Both the position numbers and the translations under genes were made by a program. The notes beneath the pieces were generated by a model, which was not told the DNA's origin, did no database searches, and saw only the letters and a list, made by a program, of their open reading frames with translations. 41,472 nt of DNA from positions 1 to 41,472 of the IMG/VR virus record IMGVR_UViG_3300009177_000065, one strand, 5' to 3'. The stretch's first letter is position 1. Each line of letters opens with the position of its first letter. The stretch is from a virus. This document shows, piece by piece, positions 1,892 through 41,472 of this stretch.

Positions 1892-4351
1892 CTACACCTC
1901 TATGGCAATGATGATTTTCTGAGCGAACGGGAAGAGTTCGGTCTCCCGCACGATCCCAGGAGTATTGTTGAAGCTGTGCGTCGGGTAGTCGAATGAAACA
2001 GCGTCGCCAAATAGAAGGTCAGTAACTGCACAAGTCGTATTGACCCCGAGAGATAGCGGGTCATCCCAGAACGCCGTGTATCGCACCACTTGTCGCTTAC
2101 CAGTTCCAAATACGCCGTTCGTGTAAATCTGCGGTGAGAATATCGCCACCACGCGATCGGCCTCGATCTGGCAATCGTTCGCTATGTCGAAGATCGTATC
2201 AAACTGCGGGATTGCGTTGATCGCGAAAGAGTACTGAGCCGCTGGCGTCTGGCTGCTCGTGATCTGAAATTGAGATTTGCGCGAGTAGCGCATCTTTACG
2301 TCTTGCGGCACAAGGGCTTGATCAGTCACGAAGTCGGCTGGCGTGAAGACCTGCCAGTTACGACGAGCCCCAAATATTGTCGTCAGGCCGCTCGCGCGAT
2401 CGTTGGATACCTTGATGGGGCGCTCTACGTTGACCATGCTGAAATCACACTTGATCGCCGGGCGAGTATCAGGATTACTCGGATCGCTTAGACGACGGCA
2501 GCGCAGCACGCCGAGGTTGTCTGTGAAAAGCGCCGCGCAACAGGAGTCGAGCGGCATCCGTAGGGCGTCCAGCATGTTCGGCGGTGCGTCAAAGTGCACA
2601 CCGAACGGGATCAGGGAACCGGCTACACCATCCGGAGTCGCCTTGTCGCGGATCATCAGCGCATCGGTGTCCGCCGAATTGAAGACGCTGGGGTCTTCAC
2701 CTCCGCGGTTCACGAGTATTTCCGTGAAGTAGTTCGTCATAGAGATCGCGCTCAACGGCAGAGAGATGTATTGCCCGAGCTTTTCCAGGCGAACACCGTA
2801 CACCCAAAGTGACACAGAACCGCTTGAGGTGCTCGGCGTTGCTCCTGAGCTTGGAGCTGCGACGAAATACAGCTTGCGTGCTGCGCCGATAGGTGCCTTG
2901 AATTCCAGAGTGAAGGTCTGGGCGCCAGCGTTGCCCCTCGTGGCACTAAGCCGGATCGGGTTTGCGATCCCCGTAATGTAGTCGTCCGGGTTGCTGGTGA
3001 GCGCCGTAGCCACCACCAGCCCCCCATAGACCCCATCGGTCAGCGCAGGCGGAGCGGTGACTACCGCGAACACGGAGAACGTCACTCGATAGGACACGCC
3101 GCCATCAAGGACAGGATTTTCCGTGGCGAGCTGGTCGCCATACAGACCGCTGTACGGGGAAAACGGTTTATCGCTGATCAGTTGCGCCGCGTTGTTCGTG
3201 CCAAGGAATGCAGCAAGGCTCGCGAGGCGCTCGGTGATCGTCCCGGACAGTTTGCTGAACGTCCAGCCATCCGGAGCCCCAGGAATCACCAGAACCGATC
3301 CTGATGGGATACTGGTCGGGGTGCCGGTCGTAACCTGCCCAGTCGCAGATGTCACAATCGAGTGCGTTCCGCCGCCGCTGGCGATCGTCGCATAGATGCT
3401 ATTCGTGCCGTCCGTTACGTAAATCTTCTGCCCGTTGGCCGGAGCAAGCGCCGTCGTCGGGATCGTGTACGTCGTGGAGCCAGTGATAGCCCCGCTGGTC
3501 GTCGTGTCGTAGCCGTTGCGGCCTAGCCATGCCCCGCTTCCTGCGGTGCCTGGAAACGCGCCAGAGCCCGCCAGCACGTCCGCTGTGCCTGGGATCGTCG
3601 CCTGGACCCCCACGGAACTGCAATCGACTGCAAGACGTCCAACGGGCATCGTCTGGAGCTGTATGCCCCATCCGCTGAGTGCTGGGGTGTATTGCGGGAC
3701 GGTCGGATCGAGAATAGCCGCCTTGTCGGAGACGGCCGATATGTTCGGGACATTAGCATCGGCGATATAGAACAGCCGGTTAGCGGAGTCGATCAGTTGC
3801 GCAGGAACGTTACGCCGTGGGCCGAATCCCATCGGTATCATCTGATTCGCAGCGTTCGGCTCAACATAGGGAGGGTTGAAAGAAGCCGGGAGGGTCTTGT
3901 CGAGGCGCGCAATCGTGTCCTTGAGCGTGATGGTGATCACGTCCTCGTCATCGGATCGGATGTCGTCAATAATTGCCGTGACCATCGTGGGCGCGTCGTG
4001 CATCGTGGTGCCGGTCAGCAGCGAGCCCGCTTTCACCAGTTTAATAATTACAGACGTGTCTCGCAGGTCAGCACTCAGCAGTTGATCGTAGGCGCCGTCG
4101 TAGTTGTCTATTTGCAGAGTTCCGACAGCCGCGGCCTGGACTCTCGAATTGCCCCACACCCAAACCTGCGGGGCGCGGCGAATGCTGAACTGCTCCGGAT
4201 TCAGAACGCGCGGGCGAAACGCTCCGTTAGACGGCGTATCGCCAGGAGCAGTAACGATGCCCTCGTCGATGATCGAGAAATACAGCGTCGCGATTCCTTC
4301 GCTGTTGATTTGGAACCACCCCGCGATTTGCTGAGTCTGTAGCTGCGTCAT
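1892..4351 (-). CDS. Tail-tip hub-like / host-specificity protein
   Basis: An 819-residue protein. The open frame extends to 4510, but the start at 4351 is chosen because ATG overlaps the upstream stop as ATGA and the extra 53 residues would lie inside the SPRY-like gene. Residues 1-220 and 560-819 look like a baseplate-hub type protein (paired beta domains, segments such as TLQIDNYDGAYDQLL and a C-terminal GDAVSFDYPTHSFNNTPG). The middle 240-550 is Gly/Ser/Thr-rich and may be a carbohydrate-binding insertion. The role at the tail tip is inferred from position downstream of the tape measure and from fold type; no catalytic motif is visible. Confidence 0.7.
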   Translation of the reverse strand: MTQLQTQQIAGWFQINSEGIATLYFSIIDEGIVTAPGDTPSNGAFRPRVLNPEQFSIRRAPQVWVWGNSRVQAAAVGTLQIDNYDGAYDQLLSADLRDTSVIIKLVKAGSLLTGTTMHDAPTMVTAIIDDIRSDDEDVITITLKDTIARLDKTLPASFNPPYVEPNAANQMIPMGFGPRRNVPAQLIDSANRLFYIADANVPNISAVSDKAAILDPTVPQYTPALSGWGIQLQTMPVGRLAVDCSSVGVQATIPGTADVLAGSGAFPGTAGSGAWLGRNGYDTTTSGAITGSTTYTIPTTALAPANGQKIYVTDGTNSIYATIASGGGTHSIVTSATGQVTTGTPTSIPSGSVLVIPGAPDGWTFSKLSGTITERLASLAAFLGTNNAAQLISDKPFSPYSGLYGDQLATENPVLDGGVSYRVTFSVFAVVTAPPALTDGVYGGLVVATALTSNPDDYITGIANPIRLSATRGNAGAQTFTLEFKAPIGAARKLYFVAAPSSGATPSTSSGSVSLWVYGVRLEKLGQYISLPLSAISMTNYFTEILVNRGGEDPSVFNSADTDALMIRDKATPDGVAGSLIPFGVHFDAPPNMLDALRMPLDSCCAALFTDNLGVLRCRRLSDPSNPDTRPAIKCDFSMVNVERPIKVSNDRASGLTTIFGARRNWQVFTPADFVTDQALVPQDVKMRYSRKSQFQITSSQTPAAQYSFAINAIPQFDTIFDIANDCQIEADRVVAIFSPQIYTNGVFGTGKRQVVRYTAFWDDPLSLGVNTTCAVTDLLFGDAVSFDYPTHSFNNTPGIVRETELFPFAQKIIIAIEV

Positions 4352-19525: not shown

Positions 19526-20143
19526 TTACGGTGCAGGTTCGATCAATAGCCATGCAACGGAACTCGTATCGCTTGCCGCGCACTTCATGCCAAACGAGAC
19601 TCCCGCGCTTCGACTGGAGACGTAGTAAATCCCTCCGACTGTGCCGGCCGGAACTTGCTCCGTCAGGAATATATTGCTGGTCGCTGTGACCTTCGTCGTC
19701 GCAACAGTGACCTCAGTCACTCCGTTGCACGTCGCGCGGCCCATCGTCGCATTCGTTCCGGTCTTGATAGAGATTCCGTCACCCGCCGCAGGTAGAACTA
19801 TGCCGTCTGCAGTGATCGATCCCGTCAACGTTGCCGAATAGGTGTAATCGCCTCGCAGGAATGTCGTGCTGTCTGCCGTACCTGTTGGCGCTGCCGCGTA
19901 GAAGGTGAAAGCCGAAGTGTCGACAAACCCCAGCGCGTACAAACCTCGCAGCGCATTCGGGTCGGTCGTCGTGACGGTGCCGGTCGAGGACACATGGAAC
20001 TGCCCGGAACTGCCCGAGACCTGCACAACCTGATTCGCGAGGTTCAGGTTCGTAACGGTCGCAGCATGAAGCAACGAGCAACCGAGCAGCGCGAAGAGAA
20101 GCGCCGTCAGCAGATGGGTCAAGCGTCGTCTTTCAGCGTTCAT
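19526..20143 (-). CDS. Exported surface/decoration-like protein
   Basis: 205 residues. The start is ATG at 20143, overlapping the portal stop as ATGA; the open frame to 20185 is not used. Residues 1-28 form a signal peptide: positive RRR, a hydrophobic run LLTALLFALLG, and then CSLLHA. LLGC could be a lipobox or LHA a signal peptidase I site. The C-terminal half (DGIVLPAAGDGISIKTGTNA, IFLTEQVPAGTVGG, VAWLLIEP) matches a beta domain common in phage decoration and fibre proteins. A secretion signal on a head-module product is unusual. Confidence 0.75.
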   Translation of the reverse strand: MNAERRRLTHLLTALLFALLGCSLLHAATVTNLNLANQVVQVSGSSGQFHVSSTGTVTTTDPNALRGLYALGFVDTSAFTFYAAAPTGTADSTTFLRGDYTYSATLTGSITADGIVLPAAGDGISIKTGTNATMGRATCNGVTEVTVATTKVTATSNIFLTEQVPAGTVGGIYYVSSRSAGVSFGMKCAASDTSSVAWLLIEPAP

Positions 20144-22392
20144 TCTTCCTCTCCGGCAACAATTGGGGCGATGACACATTGACAATTCGGGTGCGCTGGC
20201 GCGCTGTCGTCGCCGCTGGGGAAATCGTCTTCAACGTCGATCGGGCCTTCGTCCGCGTTGCCCTGACACTCGTCGCAGCAGCCGTCGTTCGACACGAGCC
20301 AGACCTTCTGAGCCACGAGGCCAGAATCCTTCCAGCCGGCGAGCTGGCCCTTGCTGTCGGCAAGGCGCGTCTCGGTGCGAGCAATGACCCCTGCGCGCTC
20401 GGCGCTGAAGGCGTACGAATCGGCGAGTGCGTCGCTGAATTGATCCAGCGACCAGCCTTGATCGATCGATTCCTGCAGCAGGTCGCGCACGCCCGCGCGG
20501 GTCTCGTCGGTGATGGCCCACTGTGCATCCGGATTCTCCACAAGGTTTCCCTCGTCGTCGTACCGCATGCCGACCATCTCCGCGCCGCGCTCGGAGGCGT
20601 AGTCTGCCGCGTACTGATCGATGAACCCCGGCTGGATCGCAATCCCTGAGCTTGCCGCATCCTTCTGTAGATGCGTCTTGGAGTGCTCGACCGCATCCGC
20701 CGAAACACGCTTGAGCGGGTCGCGGACAGCGCCAGGGAAATCCTTTAGAACGCTCCAATCAATCGCGCCGGCCAATTCTTCGGCCGTCTTGGCTTTGCCC
20801 AGGTGCGGACCGACTGAGGTCTTGACCGCCAATGCCTGGGCGCGCAGTTGGCGCTTGACCGCCCGCGTCAGTCGCTGCCGCTGAATCATCACCGTTCGCC
20901 GCTCTGGCCGGACGGCCTTCGCCAGCTTCTCAGCCTTCGGAGATTCTGCGGGCGGGGCCGGCTTGGCTGGTGCCCCGCCCGCTCCGCCGCCACCAGCCGC
21001 GGGAGGTTGCTGTCCGTCGAGCTGCTCGGTTGTGAGCATACGCGGGTCTGTCTCGATCTTCTGCGGAAGCGGTTCCTTGCCTCGATCCGCACGAACCTCG
21101 TCCGCTGTAATGATGCCCTCGCGAACCTCTTGTACGGCTATGTCGCTCGCGACCTTGGGATCGATCTCTGTCTCTTCGTCCCAAACGAAGTGGACATCGC
21201 CCGCGTTCAGGTATTTCACGAGCAAGTAATCGACCAGCGCCTTCCAGAACTTCTTCAGCGGGAGCAAGCCCTCCTCGCGAGATTGCTCCTTCTGGGTCTC
21301 GGCCGTGCCGCGGTTCATCTGCTTGATAAACGGCGTGGGCTCGACGCTGAAGCAGTAGCACACCACGCGCGCAAGCCATTCGTCGAACTCGTCCTTGAGT
21401 GCCGCCTCTTTGGAGAACGTGACTTTGTTAGCGCCCGGCACGAACTTGAGCTTGCGGCGCTCGCCGATGTTCTCCCAGCCTGGGGAGTTGAACATCGAGT
21501 CCCAATGGTCTTGGATCACGAGAATCTGCTCGGGCGTCCAGTTGTCAGGCACGCCGACGAGCGCATCAGGCACCGAGCCTTGCCGGTAGTAGTCTAGTTG
21601 GAAAATCTGCCGGCGCAGAGCGATGTTGACGGTAACGATGATTTGCTCGACCTGCGGATACCCGTAGACGCTGTCAACGGACTGATTACGCGGCCAGTAC
21701 ACAAGCTCGTCGCTCGTGTAGTCCACCGCTGGCATGCCGCGGAGTATCTGCTGGTAAGCTGGCGACGGCGGATCGGGCAGGTCGCCTGATTCGTCAATAA
21801 CCGGTTTGATCTTCGTTCCGTCCATCCACCGGAAAGCGTGGAAGCTGCCGTCATTGGTGAATTGCGGATATATGCACAGCGCATCCGTAACAAACACCTC
21901 TTCGAGCAGCGCTCGCGCCCATGTCACGTAAGGCCGACGCCCATCCGGAAACTGAAACAGCGCATTGAGCTTGCGCAGCTTGTCGTCTTCAGCCTTCCCG
22001 GCATCGCGATAGTCGAGCTTCCAATCCAGCGCTACGAACTGATCCTTGCGCGTCTCGATCACCGAGCGCAGCACGTCGTAGTTGCGCGCCAATGCCCGCA
22101 AGTCGTTGAAGCTGACGAGCTGATTGCCGCGCGGGGTGTAATTCGTATTGACCAGCGGCTGGTAGTCGAAGCGCCGGCCCACTGCTCCCATGCGCGGGGC
22201 CTGAGCCTGCGGGAGCATCGGCTGACCGGGCGAGAAGAACGTCTCCGGGTTCAGCCCTGCAACGGTGAACGTACCGTCTGCGTTGATGCGGATTCGCATC
22301 TTGTCGCCTGCGGCGATCAGAGTTTCACCGGGAATAGGCTGCTTGTACGCCCCCGCTGGGGTGTCGATTCGGCTCACTGCGCGCTGAGACAT
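20140..22392 (-). CDS. Portal protein fused to MuF head-morphogenesis domain
   Basis: 750 residues, ATG at 22392. Residues 75-450 are portal: VLRSVIETRKDQFVALDWKL, a VEQIIVTVNIALRRQIFQLD helix, and EQSREEGLLPLKKFWKALVD. A Gly/Pro/Ala linker lies at 461-485. Residues 500-745 match MuF-type morphogenesis proteins: RAGVIARTETRLADSKGQL, then CCDECQGN (705-711) and PAHPNCQCV (732-740), whose Cys/His set likely binds zinc. In most phages these are separate adjacent genes; here they are fused. The portal forms the DNA entry vertex, and the MuF part is thought to be packaged or to aid assembly. Confidence 0.9.
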   Translation of the reverse strand: MSQRAVSRIDTPAGAYKQPIPGETLIAAGDKMRIRINADGTFTVAGLNPETFFSPGQPMLPQAQAPRMGAVGRRFDYQPLVNTNYTPRGNQLVSFNDLRALARNYDVLRSVIETRKDQFVALDWKLDYRDAGKAEDDKLRKLNALFQFPDGRRPYVTWARALLEEVFVTDALCIYPQFTNDGSFHAFRWMDGTKIKPVIDESGDLPDPPSPAYQQILRGMPAVDYTSDELVYWPRNQSVDSVYGYPQVEQIIVTVNIALRRQIFQLDYYRQGSVPDALVGVPDNWTPEQILVIQDHWDSMFNSPGWENIGERRKLKFVPGANKVTFSKEAALKDEFDEWLARVVCYCFSVEPTPFIKQMNRGTAETQKEQSREEGLLPLKKFWKALVDYLLVKYLNAGDVHFVWDEETEIDPKVASDIAVQEVREGIITADEVRADRGKEPLPQKIETDPRMLTTEQLDGQQPPAAGGGGAGGAPAKPAPPAESPKAEKLAKAVRPERRTVMIQRQRLTRAVKRQLRAQALAVKTSVGPHLGKAKTAEELAGAIDWSVLKDFPGAVRDPLKRVSADAVEHSKTHLQKDAASSGIAIQPGFIDQYAADYASERGAEMVGMRYDDEGNLVENPDAQWAITDETRAGVRDLLQESIDQGWSLDQFSDALADSYAFSAERAGVIARTETRLADSKGQLAGWKDSGLVAQKVWLVSNDGCCDECQGNADEGPIDVEDDFPSGDDSAPAHPNCQCVIAPIVAGEEE

Positions 22393-29460: not shown

Positions 29461-29984
29461 GTTTCGTTCTCCATCAACTCGGCTTGCTCGGCTATCGCCT
29501 CTTCCGTCATGTGCGGCCAATACTTCGCCGCAATGTGCCGACAGATGCCGCGATAGAACTCGTGAAACTCTGCTTCGTCCATCTCGTCAAACGAGATCGA
29601 GCGAGCCTGATTGACCTGCAGTAGGCCGACGTTTGGTATCTCCACGTCTAGCACCTCGCACATAATCCCGCTTTCGCGCTGCAGACGCTTCAAGGCTTCG
29701 TGCCAATTCGACGGGAACCCTTCAACCTGTTTCGCAACCAATCCGCCGAGGGCGTGCGCGAGACAGTGGAACTTGTAATTGCGCGGCTTCGTGATGTCGC
29801 CTCGCACGTCCTGCCCGACGTAGAACTTGCGCCGCTTCATCTCTGCGCGGTCCATGTTGCCCATCGCGACCAGCACGAGGCGCGGCTCGTTCGACAACAC
29901 CTCTCCGGTAGTATGGTCGATCAGAATTGCCTTCCTGATCGTGAAGTATATTTTTTGCCGTTTGTGCGGCTTGGCGGCTTTCAT
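29457..29984 (-). CDS. DUF1367-like phage protein
   Basis: 175 residues. The segment KFYVGQDVRGDITKPRNYKF and the C-terminal FHEFYRGICRHIAAKYWPHM resemble DUF1367-type phage proteins, which lie beside replication and recombination genes. The ATG at 29984 overlaps the helicase stop (ATGA). The function of that family is not settled. The match is by eye. Confidence 0.65.
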   Translation of the reverse strand: MKAAKPHKRQKIYFTIRKAILIDHTTGEVLSNEPRLVLVAMGNMDRAEMKRRKFYVGQDVRGDITKPRNYKFHCLAHALGGLVAKQVEGFPSNWHEALKRLQRESGIMCEVLDVEIPNVGLLQVNQARSISFDEMDEAEFHEFYRGICRHIAAKYWPHMTEEAIAEQAELMENET

Positions 29985-31423
29985 GCTCGCTCAGCCGTAC
30001 CGTCGAATACGAGCGCCGGCTTGCTGAGTCCCTTCCGCGCTATCGGCTTGCGGTCTTCCTGATCCTGGGCGAAGTTTCCAGACCACGATTCAAGCCGCAT
30101 GTACTCGAAGTGATTTTCCAAGTACACAGGCTTCCCGGTCGGCAGGTCGCGGCCCTTCGCAAGGATCAACTCGACTCGGCGCTCGTTGTGATGCTGCTTG
30201 TAGTAGTCGTCGCGATGAATCAGCAAGGCAACGTCCGCAACCTCCTCGATCGCTCCGGAACCGCGCAAGTCTCCCAGTGTCGGCCGATGGTCTTGGCGCG
30301 TAACGTTTGAACGATTGAGCTGCACCAGCAGGATAACCGGGACGTTCAATTCTCGACCTAGTGTGCGCAGCTCGCGCGCAGCGTCTCCCAGTTCGTTCAC
30401 TCGATCCTTCCCAGGGAGACCTATCTCGTGAAGATGATCGACGACGATCAGCGTCAGCGCGTTGCGCATGTGCTGCCGCTTCGCCCGCGCGACTATCTGC
30501 TTCGGCGTTAGCCTCGCTTGATCGTCTATGTACAGCGAGGCTTTCTGCAGGACGTTAACGGTTACGTCCGAGATGCGCTGCCATTCTTCTTCCGAGATGT
30601 CCCGAGGCGAACGAAGCGCCTTATGCGGCACGCGCGCCAAACGTGCCACCTGTCGCTGAATGATCGCCTCGGTCTTCATCTCCAAGGAGAACAGCGCTGT
30701 ATTGTTCCCGCGAATCGCGTTGAACGTCGCGCACTGCTCGCCGAGGATCGACTTACCCATGCTCGGGCGCCCCGCAATTATGATCAGGTCTCCAGGCTGC
30801 CAACCCAACGTGATCTCGTCAAGGTCCATGAACGGTGACGCGACACCGGTTATGTGCTCGTGCTTTTGAAAACGATCCTGTAGCTTCGCCCAGAAAGACG
30901 GGAGCGCGGTCTTGGATGACACTAGGCCGCCGCCCCGTGGGTCTCCGATCAGATGGCCAAGTCTACCTTGCGCAGTGCTTGCAATTCTCGAAGTATCCGA
31001 ACCATTAGGGGTGAACGATGCCGCAACCAAATCCGTCCCTATGTCTATCATCTGCCGTAGTCGAGACTTCTCCTTGACGATCTCCGCATACGCTGCGACG
31101 TTGGCAGCGCTTGGAACAGCGTTTGCAATCTTGAGCGCGTACGTCTCCCCTCGCTCTCCATCGCCGAACAGTTCGCCTGGGACGTTGGCCTCGAACCATT
31201 CGGCCATCGTAACCGCGTCGTACGGCTTTCCTTGCTCCGCAAGATCGAGGATCGCGCGGAATATCAATCTGTGATCCTTGCGGTAGAAATCTTCCTCGCT
31301 AATCCAGTCAGAAACCTTCGCAAGTGCGCGCTCGTCCAGCATCAGACCGCCGAGGACCGATTCCTCCGCGTCAAGAGAGTGCGGCGGCTGGCGCAATGTC
31401 TCGATGCGGTCAGGCTTCGCCAC
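29981..31423 (-). CDS. dnaB-like: Replicative DNA helicase, DnaB family
   Basis: 480 residues. The amino domain (HSLDAEESVLGGLMLDERAL) is the DnaB N-terminal pattern. Walker A is GRPSMGKS at 218-225, the SLEM motif at about 246-249, Walker B IVVDHLHE at about 326-333, and the QLNRS motif near 368-372 is the conserved H3/H4 region. It unwinds DNA at the phage fork as a hexamer. The likely partner is the zinc-ribbon protein at 31765-32145. Start GTG at 31423. Confidence 0.93.
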   Translation of the reverse strand: MAKPDRIETLRQPPHSLDAEESVLGGLMLDERALAKVSDWISEEDFYRKDHRLIFRAILDLAEQGKPYDAVTMAEWFEANVPGELFGDGERGETYALKIANAVPSAANVAAYAEIVKEKSRLRQMIDIGTDLVAASFTPNGSDTSRIASTAQGRLGHLIGDPRGGGLVSSKTALPSFWAKLQDRFQKHEHITGVASPFMDLDEITLGWQPGDLIIIAGRPSMGKSILGEQCATFNAIRGNNTALFSLEMKTEAIIQRQVARLARVPHKALRSPRDISEEEWQRISDVTVNVLQKASLYIDDQARLTPKQIVARAKRQHMRNALTLIVVDHLHEIGLPGKDRVNELGDAARELRTLGRELNVPVILLVQLNRSNVTRQDHRPTLGDLRGSGAIEEVADVALLIHRDDYYKQHHNERRVELILAKGRDLPTGKPVYLENHFEYMRLESWSGNFAQDQEDRKPIARKGLSKPALVFDGTAERA

Positions 31424-31768: not shown

Positions 31769-32145
31769 GCGTGCTGCCCCTGCTGCTGCGTCGCTCGCTG
31801 TAGCTGCTTTCCGACTGTCGAAAGTTGATAAGCGCCAGTGTCAGACATGAACCACAAGCGGAACCAATTTCCCTCCAGCGCTTTGCGAAACGCTGCCGGC
31901 CAATCGGAATAAAGCTTCGTCGAACTGCGGTAGTTCCTGCAGAACGCCTCCCACGCAAGCGCGATGAACTCGCGCGGGATGCCCGCTGTATCTGCATACC
32001 GCAGCGCATGATGGCCCTCTGGGATAGCCTCGCTGCCCTGTATACTTTTCATCCATGACGCGAATGTCATCTTCGTTCGGCCCTTCTTCTTCGCGCCGTC
32101 GAGAGTCAGAGGTTCGAATTCGTGGCCACAATGGGGGCACTTCAC
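31765..32145 (-). CDS. Zinc-ribbon replication protein (possible helicase loader or primosomal protein)
   Basis: 126 residues. GTG at 32145 overlaps the preceding stop (GTGA); longer extensions run into the upstream gene. The amino end carries KCPHCGHEFE, half of a zinc ribbon. The middle and end have LYSDWPAAFRKALEGNWFRL, a D-W-x-x-x-F/W-R...W pattern seen near the C-terminus of phage replication and DnaT-like proteins. Position just upstream of the DnaB-type helicase supports a loading role. The role is inferred. Confidence 0.65.
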   Translation of the reverse strand: MKCPHCGHEFEPLTLDGAKKKGRTKMTFASWMKSIQGSEAIPEGHHALRYADTAGIPREFIALAWEAFCRNYRSSTKLYSDWPAAFRKALEGNWFRLWFMSDTGAYQLSTVGKQLQRATQQQGQHA

Positions 32146-32414
32146 AACCGCACCTCGCGCCCTGCATACAAATGCCACACCATTCCCTCGTGCTGAATTG
32201 TGTCGATGTAGCAATGGCACGTCGGCTCCTCGAATTCAAGCCCAGTGCCTCGAATGAAAATTGGCCGCTTTACGTAGTGAGCCTCGGTGTCGAACTCCGC
32301 CCAGATGCACATGTTGCCGCGCTGCATTTGAGCGCACAGGATGACCGCATCCGCTGGCATCGTGATTAACTGATGATCGATCAGTTCGAGCGTGTATTTG
32401 TATATTTTTTTCAT
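32142..32414 (-). CDS. DUF7352-like phage protein
   Basis: 90 residues, ATG at 32414 with a GAGGGGAG ribosome site. The sequence KKIYKYTLELIDHQLITMPA, then AVILCAQMQRGNMCIWAEFD, and a late GMVWHLY is the known pattern of a short beta protein found in many phages (DUF7352-like). Its function is unknown. It is the first gene after the structured non-coding leader, so it would be the first read-out of any control there. Confidence 0.75.
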   Translation of the reverse strand: MKKIYKYTLELIDHQLITMPADAVILCAQMQRGNMCIWAEFDTEAHYVKRPIFIRGTGLEFEEPTCHCYIDTIQHEGMVWHLYAGREVRL

Positions 32415-32801
32415 CTGCTCCCCTCAAACTATTAGTGACTAACACACTGCTCTTGATCTTCTTCTGCTGAACCGCTTTTCAGCTCTTGAAGGTTCGAAGA
32501 ACATTCACCAGTAAGTGACCAAGATGGGGCTCCTATCCATCTTGGCGTCAAGCCCCCCCTACCCCAAAGCACTTGGGCAAGGAGGGCGACGCGTTCTGCG
32601 TCCGGCTCGGCCACGGAGTTGCACCGTAGGTTCCTCGTCCTTGAGTTACCTCCCCGGACCGCCCGAGCACTTAGCCCACGGCGCGCACTACCGGAGTCAG
32701 AATGTGCGCTGACCGGAGTGGACTTGGCGGGGGGACGATCGTGTGTTAGGCTTTGGCCTCGTAACACGGTCGGAGACGCCTGCCAGCATCTACTCCGATC
32801 C
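32415..32801 (-). ncRNA. Structured non-coding leader region
   Basis: About 390 bases with no convincing gene on either strand. Several stems are seen: 32793-32798 with 32770-32775; 32743-32751 with 32756-32767 (bulged); the folded domain 32569-32670; and 32519-32527 with 32537-32545. The last competes with 32526-32531/32551-32556. The region lies between a strong terminator and the replication genes in the leftward direction. It may be a regulatory leader or antitermination element. No promoter with good boxes is evident inside it. Confidence 0.55.
32569..32670 (-). ncRNA. Folded RNA domain, riboswitch-like core
   Basis: On the minus strand 32670-32661 pairs with 32578-32569 (9 of 10 pairs, two of them G-U wobbles that would be mismatches on the other strand). 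32653-32649 pairs with 32585-32581 (GGAGG/CCTCC), and inner hairpins are ACGG/CCGT (around 32625-32611) and GACGC/GCGTC (32602-32588). The inner loop segment GGAAC-CTAC-GGTGCAACTCC resembles the core GGGAA/GGTGxAAxTCC of cobalamin riboswitches, but the B12 box is not found. Ligand and function are unknown. Confidence 0.55.
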
Positions 32802-32826
32802 AAAGGCCCTCGCAATGAGGGCCTTT
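32802..32826 (-). terminator. Strong hairpin terminator after the 65-residue gene
   Basis: A perfect 10-bp stem AAAGGCCCTC/GAGGGCCTTT with a 5-base loop. It lies 14 bases past the stop of the 32841-33038 gene. The stem ends in a T-rich arm (TTT) on both strands, so it may work in either direction. It would cut the short early leftward message, unless antitermination lets polymerase reach the replication genes. Confidence 0.75.
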
Positions 32827-32840
32827 GTATTTCTGAAACT

Positions 32841-33038
32841 CTACGCCGCTCGAAACTTCCGTGCAAGCCCCTTCGCTTCTTCCATCCTACGGACTTGCTC
32901 GGCGCTGCGGCTGTGGATCATATTCTGCAGCAAAGACCACCAATAGCGCTTTTCAGAGGGCGAACCGCCCGACTCGGTGAGCCTGGAAAGCTCTCCGATG
33001 ATGTTTTCACGCTCTGCGTCGGTCAGTTGCATCACCAT
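32841..33038 (-). CDS. Small helical protein of early leftward unit
   Basis: 65 residues, ATG at 33038 with GAGGG eight bases upstream. Overlaps the end of the HTH gene by 32 bases. It is an all-helix protein, QLTDAERENIIGELSRLTES then RYWWSLLQNMIHSRSAEQVR, resembling small DUF-type phage regulators. Co-transcribed with the HTH protein and followed by a terminator. Role unknown. Confidence 0.7.
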   Translation of the reverse strand: MVMQLTDAERENIIGELSRLTESGGSPSEKRYWWSLLQNMIHSRSAEQVRRMEEAKGLARKFRAA

Positions 33039-33210
33039 TTTTGCGAACCCTCATACCTCGGAGCTTGAGCGCTACGGTTAGCCTCGGTTCCTTCGTTCGC
33101 CCCTTCTTGAGATCGCACAGAGCGCCTACTGAGGCCCCGACGCGCCGCGCTATTTCGCGCAAGCTGTACTTCGTCTCAAGGGATGCGATTCGTGTTTGCC
33201 ATTCGTTCAT
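33007..33210 (-). CDS. Cro/CI-type HTH regulator
   Basis: 67 residues. The start is ATG at 33210; an upstream-extended frame to 33303 runs through the promoter region. A helix-turn-helix lies at residues 15-36 (YSLREIARRVGASVGALCDL), with a basic C-terminus (KKGRTKEPRLTVALKLRGMR). It is the first gene of the leftward unit and probably binds the repeated sites in the divergent promoter region. With no integrase seen, it is more like Cro than a lysogeny repressor. Confidence 0.78.
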   Translation of the reverse strand: MNEWQTRIASLETKYSLREIARRVGASVGALCDLKKGRTKEPRLTVALKLRGMRVRKNGDATDRRRA

Positions 33211-33220
33211 GCGGCGGCAC

Positions 33221-33272
33221 TGTACGGCAACGCGAACTATTTTGCAAGTACCCACGCTTGACAAGTGTACGG
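33221..33272. promoter_or_regulatory. Candidate operators for the HTH regulator
   Basis: The 7-mer TGTACGG recurs at 33221-33227 and 33266-33272, and CAAGTAC (33245-33251) resembles CAAGTGTAC (33262-33270). These related sites lie on and between the divergent promoter boxes. A small HTH protein bound here could shut off one or both directions. No symmetric operator is clear enough to be sure. Confidence 0.4.
33236..33264 (-). promoter_or_regulatory. Leftward sigma70-like promoter
   Basis: -35 TTGTCA (33264-33259, five of six) and -10 AATAGT (33241-33236, four of six), spacer 17. The -35 overlaps the rightward -35 on the opposite strand. The leader to the HTH start at 33210 would be about 20 bases, with no clear ribosome site. 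Another pair (TTGCAA, TACAGT) lies just downstream and could also work. Confidence 0.6.
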
Positions 33273-33285
33273 AACGGCGTATATT
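33258..33285 (+). promoter_or_regulatory. Rightward sigma70-like promoter
   Basis: -35 TTGACA (33258-33263, perfect) and -10 TATATT (33280-33285), spacer 16. Transcription would start near 33292 and reach the first rightward gene at 33329, whose AGGGAG ribosome site lies at 33316-33321. This is the best promoter seen in the window. Confidence 0.75.
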
Positions 33286-40437: not shown

Positions 40438-40637
40438 CCGCCGCACCCGCGTTGCTGCCGCTCGAAATTCCAGATTCGATTGTGGATAAGGTTGTTGGGT
40501 ACATGACGGCTGGAATGAACGCCGGGTGCAATGCCAACGATGCTCGCGCAATCTGGAAACTGGTGCTATCGCAAATTGCCGGCGAACTTGCTGAGCTATG
40601 GAACCGCCGCGAAGCGCTACTGAGCCATGATGCATGA
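40434..40637 (+). CDS. Small accessory protein with shared AAPALLP start
   Basis: 67 residues, ATG at 40434. Its amino end AAPALLP is encoded by a 22-base stretch (40439-40460) repeated at 41298-41319 in the junction-spanning gene. Its end EALLSHDA shares a 17-base stretch (40610-40626) with bases 84-100 of that same gene. The middle is helical (VDKVVGYMTAGMNAGCNAND). It looks assembled from shared modules. Confidence 0.65.
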   Translation: MTAAPALLPLEIPDSIVDKVVGYMTAGMNAGCNANDARAIWKLVLSQIAGELAELWNRREALLSHDA

Positions 40638-41290: not shown

Positions 41291-41472
41291 CCAACCACGC
41301 CGCACCCGCGTTGCTGCCGTCGCTACATGCGCTTGTGGAGAAGTGGCGCAATGATTACGAGCGCGATCAGCGCACCATTTCTCCTGCGCAGCTATGCTCA
41401 GCTAAGCGCGCCAAATCTGACGCCGACGAACTCGAAGCGCTACTGAGCCGCGCCGCAACGACGCAGGCGGGA
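41287..41472 (+). CDS. Accessory protein with RMF-like segment (5' part, continues at 1)
   Basis: ATG at 41287 overlaps the previous stop as ATGA. The frame is open to the contig end and continues in frame at base 1, after removing the duplicated 123 bases, to the stop at 846. The start encodes the AAPALLP sequence shared with the gene at 40434. See the entry at 1-846 for the carboxy part. Confidence 0.75.
   Translation, partial: MTNHAAPALLPSLHALVEKWRNDYERDQRTISPAQLCSAKRAKSDADELEALLSRAATTQAG
41350..41472. repeat. Terminal direct repeat, right copy
   Basis: Identical to bases 1-123. Because the two copies read through in one frame, the contig is circular, with about 41,349 unique bases. The window therefore has two artificial gene halves at its ends. 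Confidence 0.95.

Follow-up and report, generated by a model that had tools for sequence, protein, structure and literature searches.

A putative structured RNA of about 400 nt between the early and replication genes of a phage

The gap between the early genes and the replication genes of this phage is best read as specifying a structured RNA, conserved and about 400 nt long, here termed R; it is flanked by a cro-p65 gene pair on one side and the replication genes on the other, and we take it to be a previously undescribed structured phage RNA. The hairpins of a small folded domain reported in a preliminary description of this DNA form the middle of R. Alignment with a distant phage locus, L062, shows that the predicted fold of the gap RNA keeps its helices through compensatory changes, and as an overall explanation we place slightly more than even weight on a structured phage RNA of ~400 nt that would run opposite the early/replication operon.

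The window analyzed is the whole of viral record IMGVR_UViG_3300009177_000065 (41,472 bases). The identity of its first and last 123 bases (1-123 and 41350-41472) makes it probable that the record represents a complete genome, assembled as a circle. Its leftward genes include those for terminase, portal and a DnaB-like helicase, and no tRNA genes were found in the window. The gap itself spans 426 nt (32415-32840), with the previously reported domain at its center, and is bordered by the following genes:

33007..33210, minus strand: Cro/repressor-like helix-turn-helix protein, which opens the leftward early operon (PHROG 6223 transcriptional repressor, E 5.9e-8)
32841..33038, minus strand: p65, a 65-aa early protein, directly before the gap
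32142..32414, minus strand: 90-aa protein, phrog_3848 (unknown function), the first gene past the gap, with the replication genes next
29981-31423, minus strand: DnaB-like helicase, among the replication genes after the 90-aa gene

The interval that separates the Cro-like gene from the rightward operon contains divergent sigma-70-like promoters (33258-33285 on the plus strand, 11/12; 33264-33236 on the minus strand, 9/12). A protein-coding gap was considered and rejected: a 144-aa minus-strand open reading frame has codon-position GC of 0.61/0.61/0.52, as against 0.65/0.41/0.69 in the helicase, and comparison of the gap with that of L062 revealed no coding conservation in any frame.

Alignment of the helicase led to 80 loci in viral contigs, among them L062, whose helicase is 47% identical to that of the window. 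The protein at the place of p65 in L062 is 43% identical to p65 over 54 aa; a helix-turn-helix gene precedes this p65 homolog and a gap of ~475 bases comes after it, such that the order cro-p65-gap-replication is common to both phages. Local alignment of the two gaps scores 297, against 195 +/- 9 for shuffles (z 11, with 0/400 as high), and among 3,228 segments of the loci compared the L062 segment scores 142, against a mean of 49 (sd 12) and a next best of 87. By these alignment scores, the two gaps are homologous. The parts of R, in the orientation that we consider probable, are:

32377..32406, plus strand: candidate promoter for R, TCGATC-18-TATATT, with weak sigma-70-like hexamers (8/12)
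32415..32835, plus strand: putative structured non-coding RNA R, proposed from the fold z of the gap, the L062 homology and the conserved structure
32461..32479, plus strand: block E, CTTCTGCTGAACCGCTTTT (L062 CTTCTGGTGAACCGCTCTT), 17/19 identical amid diverged sequence
32519..32545, plus strand: helix G, CCAAGATGG/CCATCTTGG (L062 CCGATTCCG/CGGAATTGG), 9 pairs, of which 4 are changed on both sides and one goes from A-U to G-U, a pair that is standard on the plus strand only
32548..32576, plus strand: hairpin D, TCAAG/CTTGG, with a compensatory pair and a U-G vs C-G difference
32554-32565, plus strand: C-rich loop of hairpin D, CCCCCCTACCCC, identical in L062
32588..32602, plus strand: hairpin C, GACGC-GTTCT-GCGTC (L062 CGCGA-CTTG-TCGCG), two-sided changes at 3/5 pairs
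32605..32668, plus strand: helix H, in which GCTCGG (32605-32610) pairs with CCGAGC (32663-32668), with hairpins B and A inside it; one additional A-U pair in L062
32613..32627, plus strand: hairpin B, ACGG-AGTTGCA-CCGT (L062 GAGG-TTTGCG-CCTC), two-sided changes at 2/4 pairs; it contains the GGTGCAACTCC that the preliminary description read on the minus strand
32628..32651, plus strand: hairpin A, AGGT/ACCT, with an invariant TCCCCGG directly after it; the stem is kept, one pair longer in L062, and shows no covariation between window and L062
32683..32709, plus strand: hairpin K, GCGCAC/GTGCGC (L062 GCACGC/GCGTGC), 2 two-sided changes; its loop is 15 nt and starts TACCGG in both phages
32714..32797, plus strand: long hairpin M/M2/L, pairing 32714-32721/32790-32797, 32724-32731/32779-32786 and 32736-32744/32764-32772, with several pairs that are G-U on the plus strand and A-C on the minus
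32801..32834, plus strand: predicted intrinsic terminator, CAAAGGCCCTCGCAATGAGGGCCTTTG TATTTCTG, just past the p65 stop codon

L062 also carries a further, diverged copy of block E (CTACTGGTGAACCTTTTTT, with 3 mismatches) at ~3394-3412 on the minus strand; it has the same orientation as the first copy, from which it lies ~366 nt away, and is just past the terminator.

The helices were drawn by hand on the plus strand from both sequences, and their conservation was assessed in two ways. In a hand alignment of the core, with gaps held open by N, 98.4% of cells are paired and 8 two-sided changes occur; when the partners were slid by 1-3 columns as a control, only 30-47% of cells remained paired, with 0-1 two-sided changes. 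Extending the hand alignment to the full element gave standard pairs at 134/135 cells on the plus strand and 128 on the minus, with 22 two-sided changes; because this alignment was fitted to plus-strand helices, its counts lean toward that strand. The second approach was a covariance model based solely on the core of L062 (169 nt with 32 pairs), which finds 32541-32709 on the plus strand of the window at 34 bits (E 2.8e-9, from a rough calibration). This test was partly non-blind, since both sequences had been consulted when the helices were selected. Because a pairless, sequence-only version of the same model finds no match in the window at E<=10, the match rests largely on the kept pairing.

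The reading of the gap as functionless GC-rich sequence that folds by chance has in its favor that the 102-nt domain, taken alone, is no more stable than expected (z +0.35, with 131/200 shuffles equally or more stable); 100-nt windows within the gap range from z near 0 to -1.8. Against chance stand the covariance-model match where the sequence-only model found nothing, and the number of two-sided changes separating the two phages; a very recent common ancestor of the two, which could also produce a shared fold, is made unlikely by protein identities of 43-47%. We therefore regard chance as very improbable. The gap as a whole (32415-32840) folds at z -5.7 on the plus strand and -4.5 on the minus, and 32690-32835 alone, which includes the long hairpin, at -6.8 and -5.1, respectively. 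Most of this beyond-chance folding comes from hairpins outside the originally reported coordinates, i.e., 32519-32545, 32714-32797 and 32801-32827.

These comparisons bear out the earlier view that the early region holds a folded RNA domain, with covariation in L062, and they redraw its limits, the true element being about four times larger. The minus-strand pairings as first drawn are present in the minimum-energy fold of 32563-32676 (minus; -45.5 kcal/mol), which includes the closing stem, a GGGG/CCUCC stem and the inner hairpins. The inner hairpins had been correctly drawn: hairpins A, B and C belong to the conserved fold, and compensatory changes occur among them. The closing stem, which had been taken as the defining helix, does not hold up, since 5/9 of its distal-stem pairs meet a mismatch or gap in L062; neither it nor GGGG/CCUCC has any two-sided compensatory change. 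The two pairs that were said to be G-U on the minus strand only are indeed present, but the distal closing stem is not kept in L062. The covariation that was to be sought in related phages was found in one distant relative, L062.

The same domain had been likened to a cobalamin riboswitch core on account of a short string, AGGAACCTACGGTGCAACTCC, which is present in the sequence. A cobalamin-type riboswitch or variant is nonetheless exceedingly improbable, and at the level of Rfam and the L062 comparison it is refuted. No cobalamin family of Rfam matches at gathering, and none of this kind appears at E<=10 with lax filters; across all Rfam families there is no match at gathering and nothing convincing at E<=10. 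L062 lacks the string: its aligned stretch, CGTAGAGGCGCAAACCTC in the minus-strand reading, is a plain, different hairpin with compensatory stem changes. No cobalamin-related gene was recognized adjacent to the domain. A 15-mer, GGTGCAACTCCGTGG, was found in 46 unrelated viral stretches. The resemblance is, on these comparisons, that of a short string lacking family support.

The preliminary description had proposed a leftward RNA. The evidence leans instead toward the plus strand: transcription of R probably runs rightward, beginning at a weak promoter close to where the 90-aa gene starts and ending at the 32801-32834 terminator. The window terminator, in hairpin form CAAAGGCCCTC-GCAAT-GAGGGCCTTTGTATTTC, carries its U-tract on the plus strand, and L062 has a terminator (AAACCCCGCC..GGCGGGGTTTTCTTTTTC) at the same place and in the same orientation; the count of terminators alone is not above shuffles, and it is the common position and orientation that lend support. 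The hand-aligned helices include 7 G-U cells on the plus strand and 1 on the minus. R would run from a 5' end near 32413-32443 to a 3' end near 32834, at the terminator. The search for a sigma-70 promoter that could drive a plus-strand RNA gave no strong one, the best candidates having 8/12 in the window and 9/12 in L062 (TCGAAA-16-TACAAT, at the corresponding place); these are consensus matches that are not significant on their own, and in both phages they would put the start ~46-48 nt before block E.

The main rival is a minus-strand element within the early leftward message, between p65 and the replication/structural genes, that serves in RNase III processing or in antitermination in a put-like or nut-like manner. 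From the gene order, the leftward operon very likely extends across the gap, the gap folds beyond expectation on the minus strand (z -4.5), and the preliminary description's G-U pairs are specific to that strand. The automatic consensus fold is -92.2 kcal/mol on the minus strand (15 G-U cells, 21 two-sided changes), compared with -97.9 on the plus; the minus consensus is thus nearly as good, and folding models do not settle the strand. What makes this element unlikely is the plus-strand U-tract in both phages, the distribution of hand-aligned G-U cells, the loss of the closing stem in L062, and the lack of any Rfam cis-element match at gathering; furthermore, the hairpin near p65 would be upstream of the rest of the element, not downstream as an antitermination target. 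The antitermination RNAs of HK022 (put) and lambda (nut) are structured RNAs in early phage leaders. The L062 strand equivalent to the window plus strand has CGCTCTTA and then a CCCCGAAGGG hairpin, which are boxA/boxB-like, whereas the window has CGCTTTTCA at that place with no clear boxB, and R is several times larger than these elements.

Returning to a rightward R, its position recalls that of OOP in phage lambda, a 77-nt antisense RNA with its own terminator that overlaps the end of cII by 52 bases (PMC5869508; PMC12197685). Like the pO-oop-tO unit, R would lie between cro-side early genes and replication genes, would be transcribed opposite to the operon, and would end at an intrinsic terminator adjoining the upstream early gene, as predicted from sequence both here and in L062. 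This likeness is one of place and direction. At ~400 nt and with nine or more helices, R is some five times the length of OOP, and it would stop before reaching p65; it is therefore not OOP. The terminator ends near 32834 and p65 coding ends at 32841, so that the RNA would stop ~6 nt before p65 and its antisense overlap with the p65 coding sequence would be nil. R could still regulate the operon as an antisense to the message that passes through the gap. Such regulation of the early/replication operon, by antisense pairing with the leftward message plus contacts made by the C-rich loop and block E, is a possibility to which we give distinctly less than even weight; the candidate contact sites would be the invariant loop CCCCCCTACCCC and block E (CTTCTGSTGAACCGCTYTT). 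The C-rich loop may also base-pair with a GGGG in the long hairpin, and this possible long-range contact is included in a further, somewhat unlikely proposal, that R represents a new type of phage RNA with an elaborate fold (~400 nt, nine or more helices), one that acts in trans on the replication of host or phage and not as a simple antisense.

The inverted repeats might also act as DNA, the gap being a replication origin or recombination site; the gap adjoins replication genes and has many inverted repeats. Each of the 7 plus-strand G-U cells in the conserved helices is, however, an A-C mismatch on the other DNA strand, a terminator with a U-tract is conserved, and the gap contains no iteron-like direct repeats, all of which renders a DNA element improbable.

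Few large structured RNAs are known from phages, and most of these have no known function. GOLLD and ROOL are large structured phage-encoded RNAs whose function is unknown, many GOLLD exceeding 800 nt (PMC12286853). R resembles them in being a large structured phage-encoded RNA, but it has no Rfam match, is clearly shorter than GOLLD, and is situated at replication genes in a window devoid of tRNAs, whereas theirs are at tRNA islands. Regulatory RNAs near early or switch genes also include PreS and aQ of lambda and sar of P22; sar (68/69 nt) and aQ (220 nt) act by base pairing, and neither is described in the same source as maintaining an elaborate fold, in which respect R differs (PMC12197685).

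Two members of this RNA family are recognized, those of the window phage and L062. Near and distant BLAST searches of phage and plasmid records returned no homolog, and pattern scans of IMG/VR (GGTGCAACTCCGTGG, TTAGGCNNNNGCCTCGTAACA, CTAAN{5,7}GGGCGN{2,3}CCGGGGA and CTTCTNNTGAACCGCTNTT) returned none besides L062; a pattern scan of GTDB contigs yielded no homolog among the matches listed and checked. The covariance model detected no third member in 87 DnaB-relative loci, then 67 loci, or in ~1,450 bacterial genomes (398 Pseudomonadota, 297 Acidobacteriota, and 369 and 385 of two classes). The sole genome match (locus L288, E 0.008) overlaps a long open reading frame resembling a type VI secretion gene and was taken as chance. 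Given the small number of genomes drawn, and patterns that derive from two sequences, the absence of a third member is weak evidence.

R occupies the early-to-replication junction, where lambda uses OOP, and its conserved fold, invariant C-rich loop and predicted terminator make its expression, its strand and its effect on the replication genes directly testable.

Elsewhere in the window, the C-terminal 125 aa of the 750-aa portal protein (20140-22392, minus strand) match head-morphogenesis/minor head families, such that this protein is possibly a portal-minor head fusion. Toward the right end, an exact 22-base direct repeat, CGCCGCACCCGCGTTGCTGCCG, occurs at 40439-40460 and 41298-41319.
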